Source of the DNA: a virus
Virus record (IMG/VR): IMGVR_UViG_3300030116_002466
Span: 1-25,050 of that record
Reading direction: 5' to 3' (one strand)
Length of the DNA stretch: 25,050 nt
Part shown: one piece after another, positions 1-10,220 of the stretch
How positions within the stretch are numbered: position 1 is the first letter of the stretch
Layout of the letters: every line of letters starts with the position of its first letter
Position numbers and translations under genes: made by a program
The notes under the pieces: generated by a model
Database searches by the model: none
What the model saw: only the letters and a program-made list of their open reading frames with translations
Told to the model about the DNA's origin: nothing

Positions 1-1340
1 TCTAAGTAACCAAGAACAGGGAACGCTTCCTTGCCAACAAAAGGGACTGAGAAGGGTTGTACCATTCCTGGCGCACGAACACGAATAGGCTGTCCAATGT
101 CTGTGTTTAAGACATCATCGATGTTGACTTGTCCTTCGACAACAGCCATTCGTGGGAAAATAGAATGTCCTAGCGAGTCGAGTGTATCTCGCATGATCTG
201 TGATTTTGCTGCTTGGATTGGTTTGAGATAATCCGCAGGGCATGATCCGATAGCTGTATGAGGTTCAGGATCAGGGCAAAACATAACAATAGGCAAATCA
301 TCCCATTGTTCAACATTGAGAATATGTAACCCATCTCCGATTGTGCATACTCTGATTCTTTCATCAATACCATCGCCATCAAAATCATAAAACAGATAAT
401 GTTCGATGTATAAAACATCTTTACCGCCTGAATCATTACGATCTGGATAAACCATATTATCAAATGGATTACGCGCTTGTTGCTCATCGTAACTCTCAGG
501 ATCGAGAGTTGTACCTGCATATGAGGCATACTCTTCTATTTCGTCTGCATCATAACCCATCGCAACTAACTCTGAAACTGACTTAATCATTCGGTGTGCT
601 ACATACGAGGCAGATTTAATATCTCTTGCGTGTCTTGAGATCAATACCTCTTCAGGTGGTATGGCCTCTAAACACACTTGGTTTTTAGCTTTCACTCTGC
701 GAATGGTAATGTCATACATCGCAGGGATTTCTTGTGTTACCTCTTCACCACTCACAGGATCAACTGTGGTAATGCTTTGCATGGTGACAGACTCTTCAAC
801 AATCTCAACATTCGGATCTAACACTAAGGCTTGATAAGCCTGTGGATCTAACCCGGTATATTCATGGGTGGATGCTGTGATTGAATCGTCCCAAAAGCCC
901 TTAACAAAACCTGTCTTTCTCACCAACGCATCTTTAAATGCAGAGTACAAAACATTGAAACCCTGATTCTTTTGTTGAACGATGTAGTTGATGTAGTCGG
1001 TTTGTTGCTCTGCCAGGGGAATATCTTCAGGGCCATTGGGGACGAACTCGACTACCTTCTTAGTACCAAAAAAAGTACGCATAACAGAAGGCAACATAAA
1101 TAAAACTGTATCTCTAACATCGGTAGAAACAAATTCTGACTGTAAGGTCGAAGTGGCTTCAGGTTCACTACCAAGATAATACTCAGTTGACTCAGCTCTC
1201 TCTTCTCCGACTTGGTGGATGAAGTCTTTTGCATCATCCATCTCAGATTTAATTACACCGACTAAATCGATCATGCTTGATTCTTCATCAACTTGCATCT
1301 CGATTTCTGCTTCGATTTCTTTAACTTTCTTTTTCGCCAT
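1..1340 (-). CDS. Phage portal protein, P22-type, partial (C-terminus beyond window start)
   Basis: The reading frame is open from an ATG at 1338-1340 to the window edge, giving 446 residues without a stop. It starts MAKKKVKEIEAEIEM and continues with an acidic, helical N-terminal region and then segments such as SVMRTFFGTKKVVEFVP and RHARDIKSASYVAHRMIK, which are typical of podovirus P22-like portals. Portals form the dodecameric ring at the packaging vertex through which TerL pumps DNA and to which the tail attaches. P22-type portals are usually 600-750 residues, so roughly a third is missing. The start lies 6 bp after the TerL stop, so the two genes are co-transcribed in the usual terS-terL-portal order. 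The family call rests on pattern recognition and position; I am confident of portal, less so of the exact subfamily. Confidence 0.82.
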   Translation of the reverse strand, partial: MAKKKVKEIEAEIEMQVDEESSMIDLVGVIKSEMDDAKDFIHQVGEERAESTEYYLGSEPEATSTLQSEFVSTDVRDTVLFMLPSVMRTFFGTKKVVEFVPNGPEDIPLAEQQTDYINYIVQQKNQGFNVLYSAFKDALVRKTGFVKGFWDDSITASTHEYTGLDPQAYQALVLDPNVEIVEESVTMQSITTVDPVSGEEVTQEIPAMYDITIRRVKAKNQVCLEAIPPEEVLISRHARDIKSASYVAHRMIKSVSELVAMGYDADEIEEYASYAGTTLDPESYDEQQARNPFDNMVYPDRNDSGGKDVLYIEHYLFYDFDGDGIDERIRVCTIGDGLHILNVEQWDDLPIVMFCPDPEPHTAIGSCPADYLKPIQAAKSQIMRDTLDSLGHSIFPRMAVVEGQVNIDDVLNTDIGQPIRVRAPGMVQPFSVPFVGKEAFPVLGYL

Positions 1341-1346
1341 ATAAAA

Positions 1347-2879
1347 TTATCCCACTCTAAATATTCTGGACTTCAGAGGTTTCTTGAAATTATAACCTAA
1401 ATAACTTTGGCTTCCACCAAAACTTGCGGCACTACTCGCCATGGTCAACGCAAGTGCATCGGCTTTGTCAGGAGATTTTATACCTCTTTTTCGCATTTCG
1501 TCTTTACTCTCTATCTTTATCTTCCCGGTAGAGGTATATTTATATTGAGGCGCAGCCAATTCCGAGGCAAGCTCATCATTTTCAGGAAGTCGGCAATCAC
1601 GCTGCGCCAACCAATCTTTTACAGCAAACCAAAGTTCTGCTCTTAAATTCAAATAGTTCTTTTTCGTACTTGGTGCTTCCGCCACATTCACTCCGCGCAC
1701 AGGGAGATTTTGCTCTGCGAGGCGATCCACGACTCCTGATCCTAGACCAATCACATCAACTAAAATCTCTTGTGGTTGTTCCATCGCAGTCGCATCGTCA
1801 TAAAGATTCTTCACCGCACCGCAGAGTTGCATCAAGTCCATCGACTGGAAGGTTTTAATCTCAATGACAGTATTCCCTTGGCGCACGCACAGCGCGGAGT
1901 TATCGCCACCGAATCTTGCAACGTCTAACCCCCAGAGAATGGGCGCGGAGGCGGCGAGGGCTACGTCACGTCCCATAGCCGATCTAATTAATTCCATTGG
2001 TATGACAGTATCATCGTCTGCTTTGGGAAACTCGCCCATAACTTCCACACGCGATACAGTCGAATCTTCTCCGTATTGTTCGATCATCTTTTGGAACAGA
2101 TCTTTGTCTGTGCCTTCAACATCGCGAGAGTCGATTTGTTCTGATTTCCAGAAAGCGCGTTTGGAGTGGAATGAATCGTAGAATGGCCCTGTGTTTCTGC
2201 GCGGGTTGGAGAAAGTAAACCAATAGCGATTGGGCGTGGGTTCTGAGAAGAAACCTTCAGATACCGAGTAGATGGGCGCAGGGATACCTGAAGCCTCATC
2301 CATAATTAGACAAACACCATATGAGGAGTGAATACCTGCAAACGCATCTGGATTTTCTTCAGACCAAAGCTGTGCTTGTGCGTAGTAATATCCTGTGTCT
2401 ATTTTTAGATCACGCACTAAGGCTTCTTCAAACCAACCAGCAGGTTTAATCGTGGTTGCTGTTTTTTGAAACCAATGTGAGTTAATTGCTAGGGTTAGCC
2501 ATTTACCTAACTCAGCCCATGTTCTACTTCTAAGCTGTTGTTCTGTGTTAGCTGTAACGATAATCGTGCCACCTAATCTTGTGGATAACATCCATAAAAT
2601 GATCCAAGCCACTAATGCTGATTTACCAATACCACGACCTGAAGCTACTGCAAGTCTAAACATCTCAGGCATATCAATTACATTGTTTCTTTGAATATGT
2701 GTCGAAATTTCCCTCAAAATTTTTTCTTGCCACTTCCTTGGCCCTGAGAAATGTTCGAGGGGGGTGTCCTTTTGTCCCCAAGGGAATACGAATTTAACAA
2801 AATTATATGGATCATCTTTGATATTAATTGACCATATTTCAGTCATTAATTCTTGTTCTTGTTTTACATCGTATTTCAT
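1347..2879 (-). CDS. terL: Terminase large subunit (TerL), ATPase-nuclease
   Basis: This 510-residue protein is the packaging motor. Visible motifs are a Walker A (GRGIGKS, about residues 81-87), a hydrophobic strand ending in a Walker B with catalytic acid (CLIMDEA, about 190-196), a coupling-type segment FTFSNP (about 221-226), and a C-terminal RNase H-like nuclease with acidic residues in WGLDVARFGGD (about 317-326), ILVDVIG (about 372-378) and SPDKADAL (about 470-477). Both domains are intact and the length is normal for TerL. It translocates DNA into the prohead through the portal encoded just downstream, and cuts the concatemer. A 144-base noncoding island separates it from terS upstream, which is unusual because these genes normally abut. 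The ATG at 2877-2879 is the only good start; no strong Shine-Dalgarno is visible in front of it. Confidence 0.95.
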   Translation of the reverse strand: MKYDVKQEQELMTEIWSINIKDDPYNFVKFVFPWGQKDTPLEHFSGPRKWQEKILREISTHIQRNNVIDMPEMFRLAVASGRGIGKSALVAWIILWMLSTRLGGTIIVTANTEQQLRSRTWAELGKWLTLAINSHWFQKTATTIKPAGWFEEALVRDLKIDTGYYYAQAQLWSEENPDAFAGIHSSYGVCLIMDEASGIPAPIYSVSEGFFSEPTPNRYWFTFSNPRRNTGPFYDSFHSKRAFWKSEQIDSRDVEGTDKDLFQKMIEQYGEDSTVSRVEVMGEFPKADDDTVIPMELIRSAMGRDVALAASAPILWGLDVARFGGDNSALCVRQGNTVIEIKTFQSMDLMQLCGAVKNLYDDATAMEQPQEILVDVIGLGSGVVDRLAEQNLPVRGVNVAEAPSTKKNYLNLRAELWFAVKDWLAQRDCRLPENDELASELAAPQYKYTSTGKIKIESKDEMRKRGIKSPDKADALALTMASSAASFGGSQSYLGYNFKKPLKSRIFRVG

Positions 2880-2910
2880 AGCAAAAATTTAGTTATGTAG
2901 TTCTATATTT

Positions 2911-2983
2911 TTAACCCCCGCCGCAAAAGTGACCTGGGGGGTAACAAGATCGGAGAGTTTGATCCTGCCGGGCAACCCAGGTC
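2911..2983 (-). other. GC-rich structured intergenic island between terS and terL
   Basis: The 144 bases between the TerS stop and the TerL start carry no ORF. In 2911-3010 I count about 56 G+C per 100, well above the surroundings. Two strong pairings are visible. An exact 8-bp stem joins GACCTGGG (2931-2938) with CCCAGGTC (2976-2983). A second stem joins TTAACCCCC (2911-2919) with GGGGGGTAA (2936-2944), 8 of 9 pairs. They share bases 2936-2938, so they exclude each other. On the transcribed (minus) strand the island is part of the TerL leader. Likely roles are a packaging start site (pac/cos), which often lies next to terminase genes, or an RNA element that controls TerL translation. The choice is inference. 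Confidence 0.55.
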
Positions 2984-3023
2984 TGACATGATAACCAGTA
3001 AGGGAGATGAGAAGTGACCACGC

Positions 3024-3494
3024 CTAGCCCGTATTTTCTTTGTTTGACAGCGTGTCCTCTGAAAGGACACGTTGTGAAGTAAGTTCTGGTTTGTTTATGT
3101 GGCCTTCAATCACACGATTTTTAGCCGAATCTAGGATTTGCGCAAGATTAACTTGATGCTGCACCTCATTTTTATCCATCCAAGCGGAGCTGTCCCTGTT
3201 TTTGAGGAAAAATATCTGCGCTTGAACAGATCCGTTGATTGCTTCCTGGTACAAAGCGTTGGTTACATCGGCAACTGCTTTTGCTCTTCCTTTCTTCAAA
3301 GCGCTATCAAAATTTCCCTTTTCGCGTTTTCTACGAGCTATCGTGGAAACAGATGTATTCAACAGCTCTGCAATTTGTCGTTCAGACAAACCATTACCTG
3401 ACCATTTTTCAATGTTTGCATAATCTTCTTCGCTAAACTTAATTCGTTTGCGACCAGATTTACCTTTTAAATAACTATAATCTTTATCCGACAT
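3024..3494 (-). CDS. terS: Terminase small subunit (TerS)
   Basis: A 156-residue protein with a basic N-terminus (KGKSGRKRIKF), a helix-turn-helix around residues 22-55 (EEDYANIEKW...LSERQIAELLNTSVSTIARRKR), and then a helical segment with AQIFFLKNRDSSAW at about 92-105. This last motif is characteristic of phage small terminases and terminase-like DNA-binding proteins. TerS recognises the packaging site and loads TerL. Its place upstream of terL and portal on the same strand supports the call. The C-terminal 40 residues are polar and look disordered. The start codon sits next to the divergent control region at 3495-3641; I see neither a strong Shine-Dalgarno nor a convincing sigma-70 promoter directly upstream, so late transcription may come from elsewhere or need an activator. 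Confidence 0.85.
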   Translation of the reverse strand: MSDKDYSYLKGKSGRKRIKFSEEDYANIEKWSGNGLSERQIAELLNTSVSTIARRKREKGNFDSALKKGRAKAVADVTNALYQEAINGSVQAQIFFLKNRDSSAWMDKNEVQHQVNLAQILDSAKNRVIEGHINKPELTSQRVLSEDTLSNKENTG

Positions 3495-3641: not shown

Positions 3642-4034
3642 ATGAGAGTTAAATTAAAAGAAAACAAAGATTGGGAAGGAAACTTCAATGGCACATATTG
3701 TGTTTTTCTAAACGGAAGAGAAGTTGGTAATGATGCCAATAACATTACACTTGATAACGAGTGGAATCCTAGAGGTATTAAAACAATTTATATTGAAAGC
3801 CCTTACAACTATGCTGAATATATTGTCGGCGAAACAAAGACCAACAAGCGCTTTGAAATTTCTGGTGGTCGTAAAGCTGGTGGTAGACATAACGATTGGT
3901 GGCTTGACGTTGATGGTGTTTGTGTTGGTTACGACAACAATGCAAAAAGACTTATTCAGTTGTTAGTTTGTGTAGAGTGGACTGATGAGCAGATTGAATT
4001 ATCTAATCGTATTTATAAAAGACAGGTTAGCTAA
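3642..4034 (+). CDS. Hypothetical protein, first gene of rightward small-gene operon
   Basis: A 130-residue soluble protein that I do not recognise. It has no signal peptide or membrane span, is rich in aromatic residues and Asn/Gly, and reads like a beta-rich fold (for example NGTYCVFLNGREVG, then KTIYIESPYNYAEYIVGE, then HNDWWLDVDGVCVGYD). The start is well supported: a purine-rich ribosome site AAGGAAGG lies just upstream, about 35 nt after a predicted transcription start. Its stop overlaps the ATG of the next gene (TAATG), so the two are translationally coupled. As the first gene behind the strongest promoter here it is probably made early or in the lysogen, away from the replication and virion operons. 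Confidence 0.7.
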   Translation: MRVKLKENKDWEGNFNGTYCVFLNGREVGNDANNITLDNEWNPRGIKTIYIESPYNYAEYIVGETKTNKRFEISGGRKAGGRHNDWWLDVDGVCVGYDNNAKRLIQLLVCVEWTDEQIELSNRIYKRQVS

Positions 4035-8149: not shown

Positions 8150-8246
8150 TTTTTTTCTCTCCTTTTCTTTTGTTAAAAATTCTATCGAAGTTCTCATCAA
8201 ACTTAGATTTATCTATTGGTCTTGGTCTATCACCTTTTCCTGTCAT
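8118..8246 (-). CDS. Conserved phage micro-protein (MTGKGDRPRP type)
   Basis: A 42-residue basic protein starting MTGKGDRPRPIDKSKFDENF and continuing DRIFNKRKG. The G.GDRPRP...FD.N.DRIF pattern recurs in small proteins of many marine and enteric phages; its function is not known. AAGGAG lies 6 nt before the ATG at 8246. The start overlaps the upstream stop (ATGA), and the 3' end overlaps the MT-A70 gene by 32 bases in another frame. The family motif makes this short gene credible. Confidence 0.7.
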   Translation of the reverse strand: MTGKGDRPRPIDKSKFDENFDRIFNKRKGEKKNANKPTKQKI

Positions 8247-8378: not shown

Positions 8379-10220
8379 TTAAAAACCTTTCAAATCAAAG
8401 GCACTATCTACATAAGGTTCTAACACAGCATCTCGCCTAAACAATGTCTTGACAGACATATCGACTTCACCTGAGTTAGCCTTCACCACACCCCCTCGCA
8501 CCACGCGCAGTCTGTCGTACTCCACTCCGTTTTCCAGACAAATACGCTCTGCTTCTGACTCATCGCCAAGCCATAGGCCTAAACACAGCCTATGACCATC
8601 CACGATGCCAGTTGCGCCTCGGAAACTTTCACGCGCTGCCAAAGCAGAATCTTCGCCACTTAGGGCTTGTTTCCGCATATGATGGATCGACAACACGCTA
8701 CAGTTCATACGCGAGGAGATCGAGGCGCAGAGCTGACAATATAATTGTGCGGCTTCATTTGAACTACTTATCGGTGCGGCAGCCACCGCAGATAAGGTAT
8801 CAATGCACACAAACTCTAAATTCTTGATGCCTTCTAACTCTTCAATGAGTTCATAGGCTTGTTCTGTAATATTTAACCCGGACGAATCTTCTCTAATAAG
8901 TGTCATAGGTTTAGGGGTGTCAGGGATGGTATAAGCAAAAACGTCATACTTTGTGTCATACCTTTTACCATGTGGATCAAGTGCTTGCAATCGTCTGGCG
9001 ATTTCGCCTTGATCATCCTCGGCTGAGATATAAACTGCATTGCCTTGAGCTTTAACAGGTTGTCCCAACCACTCGCCCTCGCCTTGTGCTACTTTAAGTG
9101 CAAGATCTAAAGCCAACATCGACTTACCGACACCGCCAATCGCTGCAAGTAGGCTTGGTTTATTCTTTTCTAAGAGTCGGTCAACCAACCAAACTCTAGG
9201 CGGTGGATCACCAACAATGTTTCTAATGGCATACCGGGTTATACCAAACCCTTGTTCTAATATCTCTTGTTTGACCTTTTCCAAACCATGTTCAGCAAAC
9301 ATGTCGTTGTAATCGCCTGTAAGGCTCGGTATGCGCATGAAACAATTATAGATACCCGAGCATATGTCTTGTGCTTTACGCTGTCCCACGCCATGAGAAT
9401 CGTTGTCAAAGCATATATACATCTTTGCATCGGTTTTCTTGCGTAAATTATTAACTGCATCCATACCAAAGTTAGCAGAGAATACACAGGCCACAGGGAT
9501 GCGTGTTGCTTCCCAAATGGTGCTTGCAGTTGCGTAACCTTCACAGATTGCAAGTTCTTGTACGCTTCTTAACGAGTTGAAATCTGTACCAATCAAGAAC
9601 ACATTACCCTTGATTTCTCCACCCCCAGCGAATCTTTTACCCCCCTTTTTGTCAATGTACTGTAGAGAACGAATGTTGCCTGTAGTATCATATACACCGA
9701 CTACAAGATTTCCCTTCTGGTCAACTTTTAAACCATAATTTTTAACTTTTTTACTTGTAAGGTACTCATGCTCCGTAATATTTTCAAAAGAACCGAAGAG
9801 AAGTTTTATCTCTTTAGCCACTTCTTCATGCCTCTCTTTTTCAGCTTTATCACGCCTCTCATGAGCCTCAAGCATTTGTTTCTTTAATTCTTGGTTCTGC
9901 TTGGGTGTTAGAGTATTGGTGTTAATAGAACTCCACTTACCCTCAAAGCCTGACTTCCAATTACCAAAGACAGCAAAGTAATTACCTTTGAGTTCATTAA
10001 TACAATACCAACCTGATCGCTGATTAGATCTATCAGCCTTCGCGCCTGCGCCCTCTGCAACTCTTACTCTCACTAACTGCCCGGACGTATCTAAATGATC
10101 CACCAATAGACCATGATTACGCATTTCGTTAATGAGTTCGTTTAAATCTTTACCTTGTTTGTAGATGTTGTCCTGATTGACAACGATGCCTTCCTCTCCA
10201 AAAAATCTAGTCAGATCCAT
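8379..10220 (-). CDS. Bifunctional TOPRIM primase and RepA/RecA-like helicase
   Basis: A 613-residue replication protein. The N-terminal half (to about 320) carries a TOPRIM domain with the catalytic Glu in LAICEGYATA (about 223-232) and the metal-binding DxD in MYICFDNDSHG (about 267-277). The C-terminal half is a RecA-fold hexameric helicase: Walker A AIGGVGKSM (about 360-368), ISAEDD (about 398-403), Walker B FVCIDTLSA (about 470-478), and a SIHHMRK motif (about 511-517) as in RepA-like helicases. No zinc-ribbon is present at the N-terminus, so the template-recognition module is reduced or lies elsewhere; the adjacent Cys-rich gene could be relevant. A charged helix at about 105-140 links the halves. 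It is expected to prime and unwind at the phage fork. Confidence 0.92.
   Translation of the reverse strand: MDLTRFFGEEGIVVNQDNIYKQGKDLNELINEMRNHGLLVDHLDTSGQLVRVRVAEGAGAKADRSNQRSGWYCINELKGNYFAVFGNWKSGFEGKWSSINTNTLTPKQNQELKKQMLEAHERRDKAEKERHEEVAKEIKLLFGSFENITEHEYLTSKKVKNYGLKVDQKGNLVVGVYDTTGNIRSLQYIDKKGGKRFAGGGEIKGNVFLIGTDFNSLRSVQELAICEGYATASTIWEATRIPVACVFSANFGMDAVNNLRKKTDAKMYICFDNDSHGVGQRKAQDICSGIYNCFMRIPSLTGDYNDMFAEHGLEKVKQEILEQGFGITRYAIRNIVGDPPPRVWLVDRLLEKNKPSLLAAIGGVGKSMLALDLALKVAQGEGEWLGQPVKAQGNAVYISAEDDQGEIARRLQALDPHGKRYDTKYDVFAYTIPDTPKPMTLIREDSSGLNITEQAYELIEELEGIKNLEFVCIDTLSAVAAAPISSSNEAAQLYCQLCASISSRMNCSVLSIHHMRKQALSGEDSALAARESFRGATGIVDGHRLCLGLWLGDESEAERICLENGVEYDRLRVVRGGVVKANSGEVDMSVKTLFRRDAVLEPYVDSAFDLKGF

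Follow-up and report, generated by a model that had tools for sequence, protein, structure and literature searches.

What does the long noncoding stretch between the two terminase genes of this virus encode, and on what might it act? The DNA analysed here (the window) is a stretch of 25,050 nucleotides, positions 1 to 25,050 of the 25,501-base IMG/VR virus record IMGVR_UViG_3300030116_002466. An initial annotation had described the space between terS and terL as a structured, GC-rich island with two mutually exclusive stems, and had offered two possible functions for it, recognition by TerS as a packaging site or control of TerL as an RNA switch. The genes concerned follow one another on the minus strand in the order terS, terL, portal:

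3024-3494, minus strand: terS, from the list of open reading frames; terminase small subunit by PHROG family phrog_309 (E 1.4e-24)
3024-3026, minus strand: terS stop codon TAG, at the 5' edge of the RNA element
1347-2879, minus strand: terL, from the list of open reading frames; terminase large subunit by PHROG family phrog_2 (E 1.4e-45), directly 3' of the element in the window
3-1340, minus strand: SU10-type portal gene, after terL

By the coordinates of the open reading frames, the gap is exactly 144 nt long (2880-3023), as originally described. Both of the proposed pairings were found at the expected places: GACCTGGG at 2931-2938 pairs with CCCAGGTC at 2976-2983 in 8 of 8 positions, TTAACCCCC at 2911-2919 pairs with GGGGGGTAA at 2936-2944 in 8 of 9, and the two stems overlap at 2936-2938. 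The gap has a G+C content of 50-51%, above the 23-36% found immediately to its left, but to call it an island was an overstatement, since terL itself reaches 50-52% at ≈2150-2299. Nor are all other junctions tight, as had been thought: the spacer between terS and the divergent gene at 3642 measures ≈147 nt, and 178 nt lie between the open reading frame ending at 8200 and the one starting at 8379.

Relatives were collected from viral contigs by TerL similarity, using the best 80 per search; most were 84-100% identical, with a lower limit of 70%, and the loci were redundant between the TerL searches. The clade is common, with at least 600 matches in each of three single-protein scans of the viral collection. 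A readable terL start was present in 260 loci, 249 of which had at least 150 nt of upstream sequence. A C-tract of at least five residues followed by an A/T block was present ahead of the next gene in 246 of these 249, a count that includes redundant loci and comes from a search that required both features. The only three loci without them were the distant named phages L087-L089, in which TerL is ≈49% identical; in one of these, DSL-LC05, terS and terL overlap by one base. The 246 loci were reduced to 132 unique elements (31 of type I, which is the type of the window, 44 of type II and 57 others). They include L484, an artefact that lies within terL, and 129 of the 132 had an identifiable TerS. 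Leaving aside the nearest relatives of the window, TerS identity is only ≈26-59% where that of TerL is mostly 84-92%; judged by these alignments, terS and the gap probably evolve far faster than terL. No cultured member of the clade was found in the phages collection, since all relatives there had less than 60% identity. One phage contig, L507, with a TerL 85% identical to that of the window, was assigned by binning to an uncultured Candidatus Pelagibacter genome, which is a weak hint of the host.

Comparison of the type I elements yielded the following arrangement, listed from 5' to 3' in the sense of terL:

3027-3031, minus strand: helix P5, 5' arm CGGGC, overlapping the last terS codons; covaries with 2969-2973 across type I, the arm in the window being assigned by homology
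2985-3024, minus strand: hairpin P2 (arms 3014-3024 and 2985-2995), loop 2996-3013 with a conserved UCUCCC at 3002-3007; loop motif enriched
2976-2983, minus strand: helix P4, 5' arm GACCTGGG, half of the first stem; permutation tests and covariance-model alignment
2969-2973, minus strand: helix P5, 3' arm GCCCG, inside P4; covariation and permutation tests
2945-2967, minus strand: hairpin P3 (arms 2961-2967 and 2945-2951), loop 2952-2960 AAACTCTCC, containing CUCUCC; permutation tests and covariance-model alignment
2936-2941, minus strand: C-tract of six C's, the last three of which are part of P4
2931-2938, minus strand: helix P4, 3' arm CCCAGGTC, the other half of the first stem
2915-2919, minus strand: G-run from the second stem; lacks conservation and may pair with C's of the C-tract that P4 leaves free
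2881-2908, minus strand: A/T block, consensus approximately AACTnnTGAAnTAAAATTTTT, directly before the start codon, without a Shine-Dalgarno sequence

P4 encloses hairpin P3. Because the 3' arm of P5 lies inside P4 and its 5' arm outside, P5 and P4 together make an H-type pseudoknot whose long loops each contain a hairpin. The arms of P5 change in concert across type I, as in CTGGTA/TGCCAG, AGGCA/TGCCT, TGGGAT/ATCCCA and TGGGC/GCCCA, and likewise in GGCAAT/ATTGCC, CGAGCT/AGCTCG, CGGGCT/AGCCCG and GGCGTA/TACGCC. For the window itself an automatic search favoured another pairing; CGGGC/GCCCG is the homologous one.

One explanation for such stems is chance pairing in a noncoding gap, and the window taken alone gives no reason to reject it. 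Single-sequence folding of 126 nt of the window was no better than that of dinucleotide shuffles on either strand (z -0.60 on the minus strand, with 46 of 200 shuffles as good, and z +0.21 on the plus strand, with 117 of 200). The relatives gave a different result. In 17 sequences with arms read by hand, pairing of each arm with its own partner was 100% for P5, 100% for P4 and 98.8% for P3, compared to 47.1%, 59.6% and 48.8%, respectively, when partners were swapped. With windows placed around the hand-read arms of 23 sequences, none of 20,000 permutations matched the observed pairing for P3, P4 or P5. As the arms had first been chosen by eye, the permutation test was rerun with windows placed by reference to two landmarks, the terS stop codon and the C-tract. 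For type I this gave z 10.0 for P4 and z 6.3 for P3, and for P5 z 6.4 with the 5' window on the stop codon and the 3' window on P4, or z 4.8 without reference to P4 (0 of 20,000 permutations in each case). Relatedness stays in these statistics, an effect that is lessened by using one sequence per sub-clade (n = 15); the values were then 8.4 for P4, 4.8 for P3, and 5.0 and 4.6 for P5, all with 0 of 20,000. Over all gaps of at least 15 nt, the P4-type and P3-type windows gave z 9.1 and 5.8 (0 of 20,000 each) and the P5-type windows z 4.1 (1 of 20,000).

A covariance model, R1, was built from P4 and P3 only, using nine sequences and leaving the window out. Searched over 98 sources (544,012 bases), it returned 28 matches up to E 1, including the window at 2933-2981 on the minus strand (23.0 bits, E 0.009), and it scored three class D elements outside the training set at 26.4-30.5 bits. 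In the resulting alignment of 20 distinct rows, 255 of 257 cells (99.2%) pair, and both sides have changed in 11 of the 14 pairs; the covariation score was 0.666, compared to 0.191 for shuffled alignments and at most 0.077 for slid structures, with the caveat that an alignment fitted to a structure leans towards that structure. Among 159 mostly unrelated loci, R1 matched three places in 79 and two in the other 80 at E up to 1; the 79 came from element pattern scans of viral contigs, in which the matches listed were mostly chance. Four of these five places proved to be terS-terL gaps of the same clade, and the fifth (L255, E 0.8), which has neither a terS nor a terL match, was taken as a chance hit. 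R1 did not match 48 loci, namely the 44 type II elements, contig L507 from the Pelagibacter bin and the distant named phages L087-L089, and by this test type II is therefore a different scaffold. RNAalifold found no structure in a plain MAFFT alignment of type I, because MAFFT puts the arms out of register.

The compensatory changes that had been proposed as a check on the stems are thus present in the first of them, which is P4, and they occur also in P3 and P5, two helices that lay outside the original observation. They go beyond chance for P3, P4 and P5, as expected of a conserved structured RNA, and for the long stem P1 of type II in three of five measures. The permutation, covariance-model and slide controls refute chance for P3, P4 and P5, though not for the second stem; as an account of the element, chance pairing is now next to negligible. 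By comparison of relatives, then, helices P3, P4 and P5 exist and P5/P4 form a pseudoknot, and the gap appears to encode a fast-changing but strongly conserved folded RNA with two constant loops.

The second stem fared differently. Of the unique elements, 22 of 31 in type I, 5 of 44 in type II and 30 of 57 among the others have four or more consecutive G's in the 32 nt that follow the C-tract, and no compensatory changes in this stem were seen among the relatives. Since the stem is not conserved, a two-state switch is unsupported, and we rejected a mutually exclusive pair of helices on the G-run counts. The two stems need not even exclude each other, as the G-run could pair with the spare C's of the C-tract while P4 is formed. 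The earlier suggestion of an RNA switch on TerL therefore holds in its first half only: an RNA is indicated by the compensatory changes in P3, P4 and P5, by the wobble pattern of P1 and by the place before a start without a Shine-Dalgarno sequence, but not its switching.

The wobble pattern also bears on which nucleic acid is the functional form. The stem search penalised G.T and A.C equally, yet among the distinct variants of the type II stem P1 (44 unique elements) there were 54 G.T and only two A.C, together with 22 other mismatches. The numbers were smaller in P4 (four G.T versus two A.C) and type I P3 (five versus two), and hairpin P2 showed no strand preference (24 G.T versus 19 A.C in type I, six versus six in type II). 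In the type II alignment of 38 sequences, three adjacent P1 pairs vary only as A-U and G-U, apart from one G-C. The covariation score of P1 was 0.315 versus 0.203 for shuffled alignments, and none of 500 shuffles reached it, although the number of double-change pairs (4 versus 2.7) and of pair types (12 versus 10.7) did not go beyond the shuffles, 76 and 105 of which did as well. On the opposite strand, a G.U pair of the minus-strand RNA would read as C.A; the functional form is therefore likely to be the terL-sense (minus) RNA rather than DNA, a conclusion that rests mainly on P1. The 54 G.T against two A.C and the A-U/G-U pairs make a DNA cruciform or a plus-strand RNA unlikely. We also considered that the gap might be coding, or reached by stop-codon read-through. 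The elements of close relatives have lengths of 93, 94, 96 and 97 nt, and since these do not differ by multiples of three, there is no conserved reading frame.

What persists across the clade is the loops. TCTCC, CTCCC or CTCTC was present between the terS stop codon and the C-tract in 107 of the 122 gaps of at least 15 nt: 31 of 31 in type I, 42 of 42 in type II and 34 of 49 among the others, where fractions of 0.42, 0.09 and 0.23, respectively, would be expected. The scaffolds that carry them differ among clades while the loops mostly persist; L507 has yet another scaffold, again showing TTCTCCC and CACTCTCC. The motif was missing from 15 of the 122 gaps, and seven of 129 gaps were shorter than 15 nt. 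Hairpins are thus not indispensable, as some lineages do without them; the C-tract and the A/T block remain in those lineages, but were features that the search required.

Constant loops on changing scaffolds are also what would be seen if the RNA acted in trans, its pyrimidine loops pairing with the GGAGA Shine-Dalgarno sequences of phage or host messages and shutting them off late in infection. Small RNAs with CU-rich loops are known to bind Shine-Dalgarno sequences, for instance the UCCC-loop RNAs of Staphylococcus, and the gap RNA resembles them in its conserved UCUCC(C) loops on variable stems. UCUCC complements GGAGA, which is found before several start codons in the window. Furthermore, two long records, G005 (C1:36271-36319, plus strand) and G003 (C1:13533-13581, minus strand), share a conserved hairpin in an intergenic region, on the strand opposite to terL and ≈3-4 kb upstream of that gene; its long loop is rich in C and U (CTCCCCCTCCTC). 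A search of six long records and the window for such CU-loop hairpins found none in G004, which lacks the module. Any C/U-rich loop, however, complements Shine-Dalgarno sequences, and the gap RNA differs from the small RNAs in lying within an operon. Consensus scans found no terminator-like site (U-run) of its own beside the element and no promoter-like site either, the sole one being at 3626-3598 on the minus strand, upstream of terS, so that a separate short RNA would need processing. We regard a trans-acting RNA as rather doubtful.

The sequence at 2950-2966 on the plus strand of the window, CGGAGAGTTTGATCCTG, is presumably that with which many bacterial 16S rRNA genes start (the 27F primer region). 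An antisense relation to 16S rRNA was considered and taken as coincidence, since relatives keep the CTCTCC loop and change the flanking stem.

Where terL comes directly after the element, a Shine-Dalgarno-like sequence was present within 20 nt in none of 113 starts, and where another gene has been inserted in front of terL, in two of 17 first genes (one of the 17, L484, is the artefact), compared to 61 of 138 other open reading frames of at least 150 aa in six sequences. In the loci with inserted genes, the element with its A/T block, or the C-tract with the block, still lies behind terS and ahead of the inserted gene. Two kinds of insert were seen. In L017 (1127-1684), L018, L040 (996-1550) and L043 (1577-2083), inserts lie between the A/T block and terL and overlap the terL start; they differ in sequence between relatives, and we take them, from their motifs, to be MT-A70-like methyltransferase genes. 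In L039 (3784-4011), L041, L048 and L051, a conserved 75-aa open reading frame (MKINRKAFIESVTDTTLGA...) lies between a hairpin-less element and terL.

The preferred reading, to which we give about an even chance on the strength of these comparisons, is that the gap encodes a cis-acting leader RNA on the terS-to-terL transcript, acting on whichever gene follows terS. As for its transcription, partner and effect, we infer the following. The RNA would act in cis as a leader, of terL in most genomes and of an inserted gene in some, and would hold the ribosome or the polymerase at the terS stop codon. Its two conserved loops would recruit a partner that is constant throughout the clade, either a host factor or purine-rich GGAGA sequences, and the downstream gene could then do without a Shine-Dalgarno sequence and be expressed at a fixed ratio to terS. 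A bolder version, which we think rather improbable, is that the pseudoknotted RNA uses its two constant pyrimidine loops to capture a translation factor or purine tracts of the Shine-Dalgarno type. A ribosome that has finished terS would then begin the next late gene with no need of a Shine-Dalgarno sequence, and other GGAGA-led messages would be held back. If true, this would be a phage-encoded translation switch in the packaging operon of an abundant uncultured clade, its loops kept while its scaffolds were repeatedly rebuilt, and a new class of phage RNA.

A leader RNA might instead act on transcription. Among ten long records, the A/T block pattern (with up to one mismatch) occurred once per record in eight and was absent from two, which led us to reject it as a general late promoter. 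The block could still be a single promoter, in which case the RNA would belong to the terS transcript, at its 3' end. Alternatively, the element could be an antitermination or termination site that acts on RNA polymerase or Rho and sets the read-through into the late operon. The put sites of HK022 and the nut sites of lambda act on RNA polymerase, and Rho prefers C-rich stretches; the element has put-like hairpins and C-rich stretches, and it is followed by a long late operon of co-directional genes, at the start of which it lies. It has no U-run terminator, however, and its loop CUCCCUU resembles boxA only loosely, for which reason a boxA-like reading of the loops was rejected. Moreover, the pseudoknot begins at the stop codon of terS, which points to the ribosome rather than the polymerase, and we consider a role in termination or antitermination unlikely.

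The other suggestion of the initial annotation was a packaging site. In this case TerS would bind the gap as a DNA pac site from which headful packaging starts, and the folds would matter as DNA or be incidental. Like the pac and cos sites of tailed phages, the gap is noncoding and adjoins terS, directly behind which it lies; lineages that have lost the hairpins keep the C-tract and the A/T block, and the block is found once per record in most of the long records. The gene positions fit a circular map of ≈36-38 kb opened at different points in different records, the distance of the primase from terL being, for instance, -7.3 kb in G001 and +29.1 kb in G008, and such an order would suit a circularly permuted genome; the IMG/VR class of all records examined is linear. 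The contig ends, however, do not gather at one point. There were 32 ends within 1200 nt upstream of terL, of which eight were at 0-199 nt, two at 200-399, three at 400-599, eight at 600-799, seven at 800-999 and three at 1000-1199, plus one just inside terL. They are thus spread, with two mild peaks (0-199 and 600-799 nt), one on each side of terS, and in the assemblies contigs run through the gap. The spread of the ends and the permuted gene order make a cos-like fixed end in the gap unlikely, and a cos site was rejected on this indirect evidence from assemblies. Nor would a double-stranded DNA site need covarying helices or a strand-specific wobble in P1; the gap differs from pac and cos sites in being conserved as a base-paired RNA fold and in having no single fixed genome end. 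The packaging site is therefore not supported by these data, and a pac site bound by TerS seems improbable to us.

RNA can also be tied to DNA packaging, as is the pRNA of phage phi29. A structured RNA with a similar role, made beside the terminase genes as part of the packaging machine, would agree with the place between terS and terL, with the compact pseudoknotted fold and constant loops, and with the occurrence at one place per genome as far as searched. The likeness to pRNA is that of a phage RNA linked with packaging genes. The gap RNA comes from a different phage group and matches neither pRNA nor any other Rfam family, and some lineages lack the hairpins. Rfam (release 15) had no match at the gathering threshold in the whole window; at a loose threshold there were three matches in 2800-3150, all below gathering (E 2.8 to 6.4), and the 18 related loci had none up to E 0.5, so that no phi29-type family match or fold was found in either. 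Membership of a packaging motor is at best a candidate role, and a very improbable one.

The leader reading has a parallel in the leader RNAs and riboswitches of marine phages, such as the glutamine riboswitch of phage Melnitz, which are structured cis-acting RNAs of open-ocean phages (PMC9004378); the gap RNA differs in having no Rfam riboswitch match and no alternative fold supported by comparison. The closest parallel in position is the cabRNA of staphylococcal phages, which is a structured RNA from the terS-terL region that activates a CBASS CdnE cyclase (PMC10686824). Its template is the coding sequence of terS and terL, and in one phage the terS-terL boundary, and its sequence is changeable while its hairpins remain. 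The gap RNA fills a noncoding stretch and has compensatory changes and a pseudoknot. As cabRNA, from the same place in other phages, triggers host immunity, the same role is worth considering for the gap RNA. A report of the gap RNA itself was not found among the open-licence papers searched. It is a well-supported pseudoknotted RNA of a very common clade that lies outside the Rfam families, and it offers concrete material for testing RNA control of a terminase operon, together with a Shine-Dalgarno-free translation start; its constant loops on rebuilt scaffolds would show what a partner must recognise.

Several further features of the region were seen in passing. In L009, L038, L042, L049, L050, L065, L472 and L478, the hairpins and the C-tract are separated by a palindromic insert of the type GATAGTAAGTnnTTACT...ACTATC, which looks like a mobile hairpin. 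In L430 and L431 a hairpin with the loop CCTCTCTCCC lies downstream, not upstream, of the A/T block, as though the module had been relocated. In the window, terS itself contains a hairpin in its 3' end (GTGTCC..GGACAC, 3043-3078), and relatives have hairpins of other sequence at about the same place.
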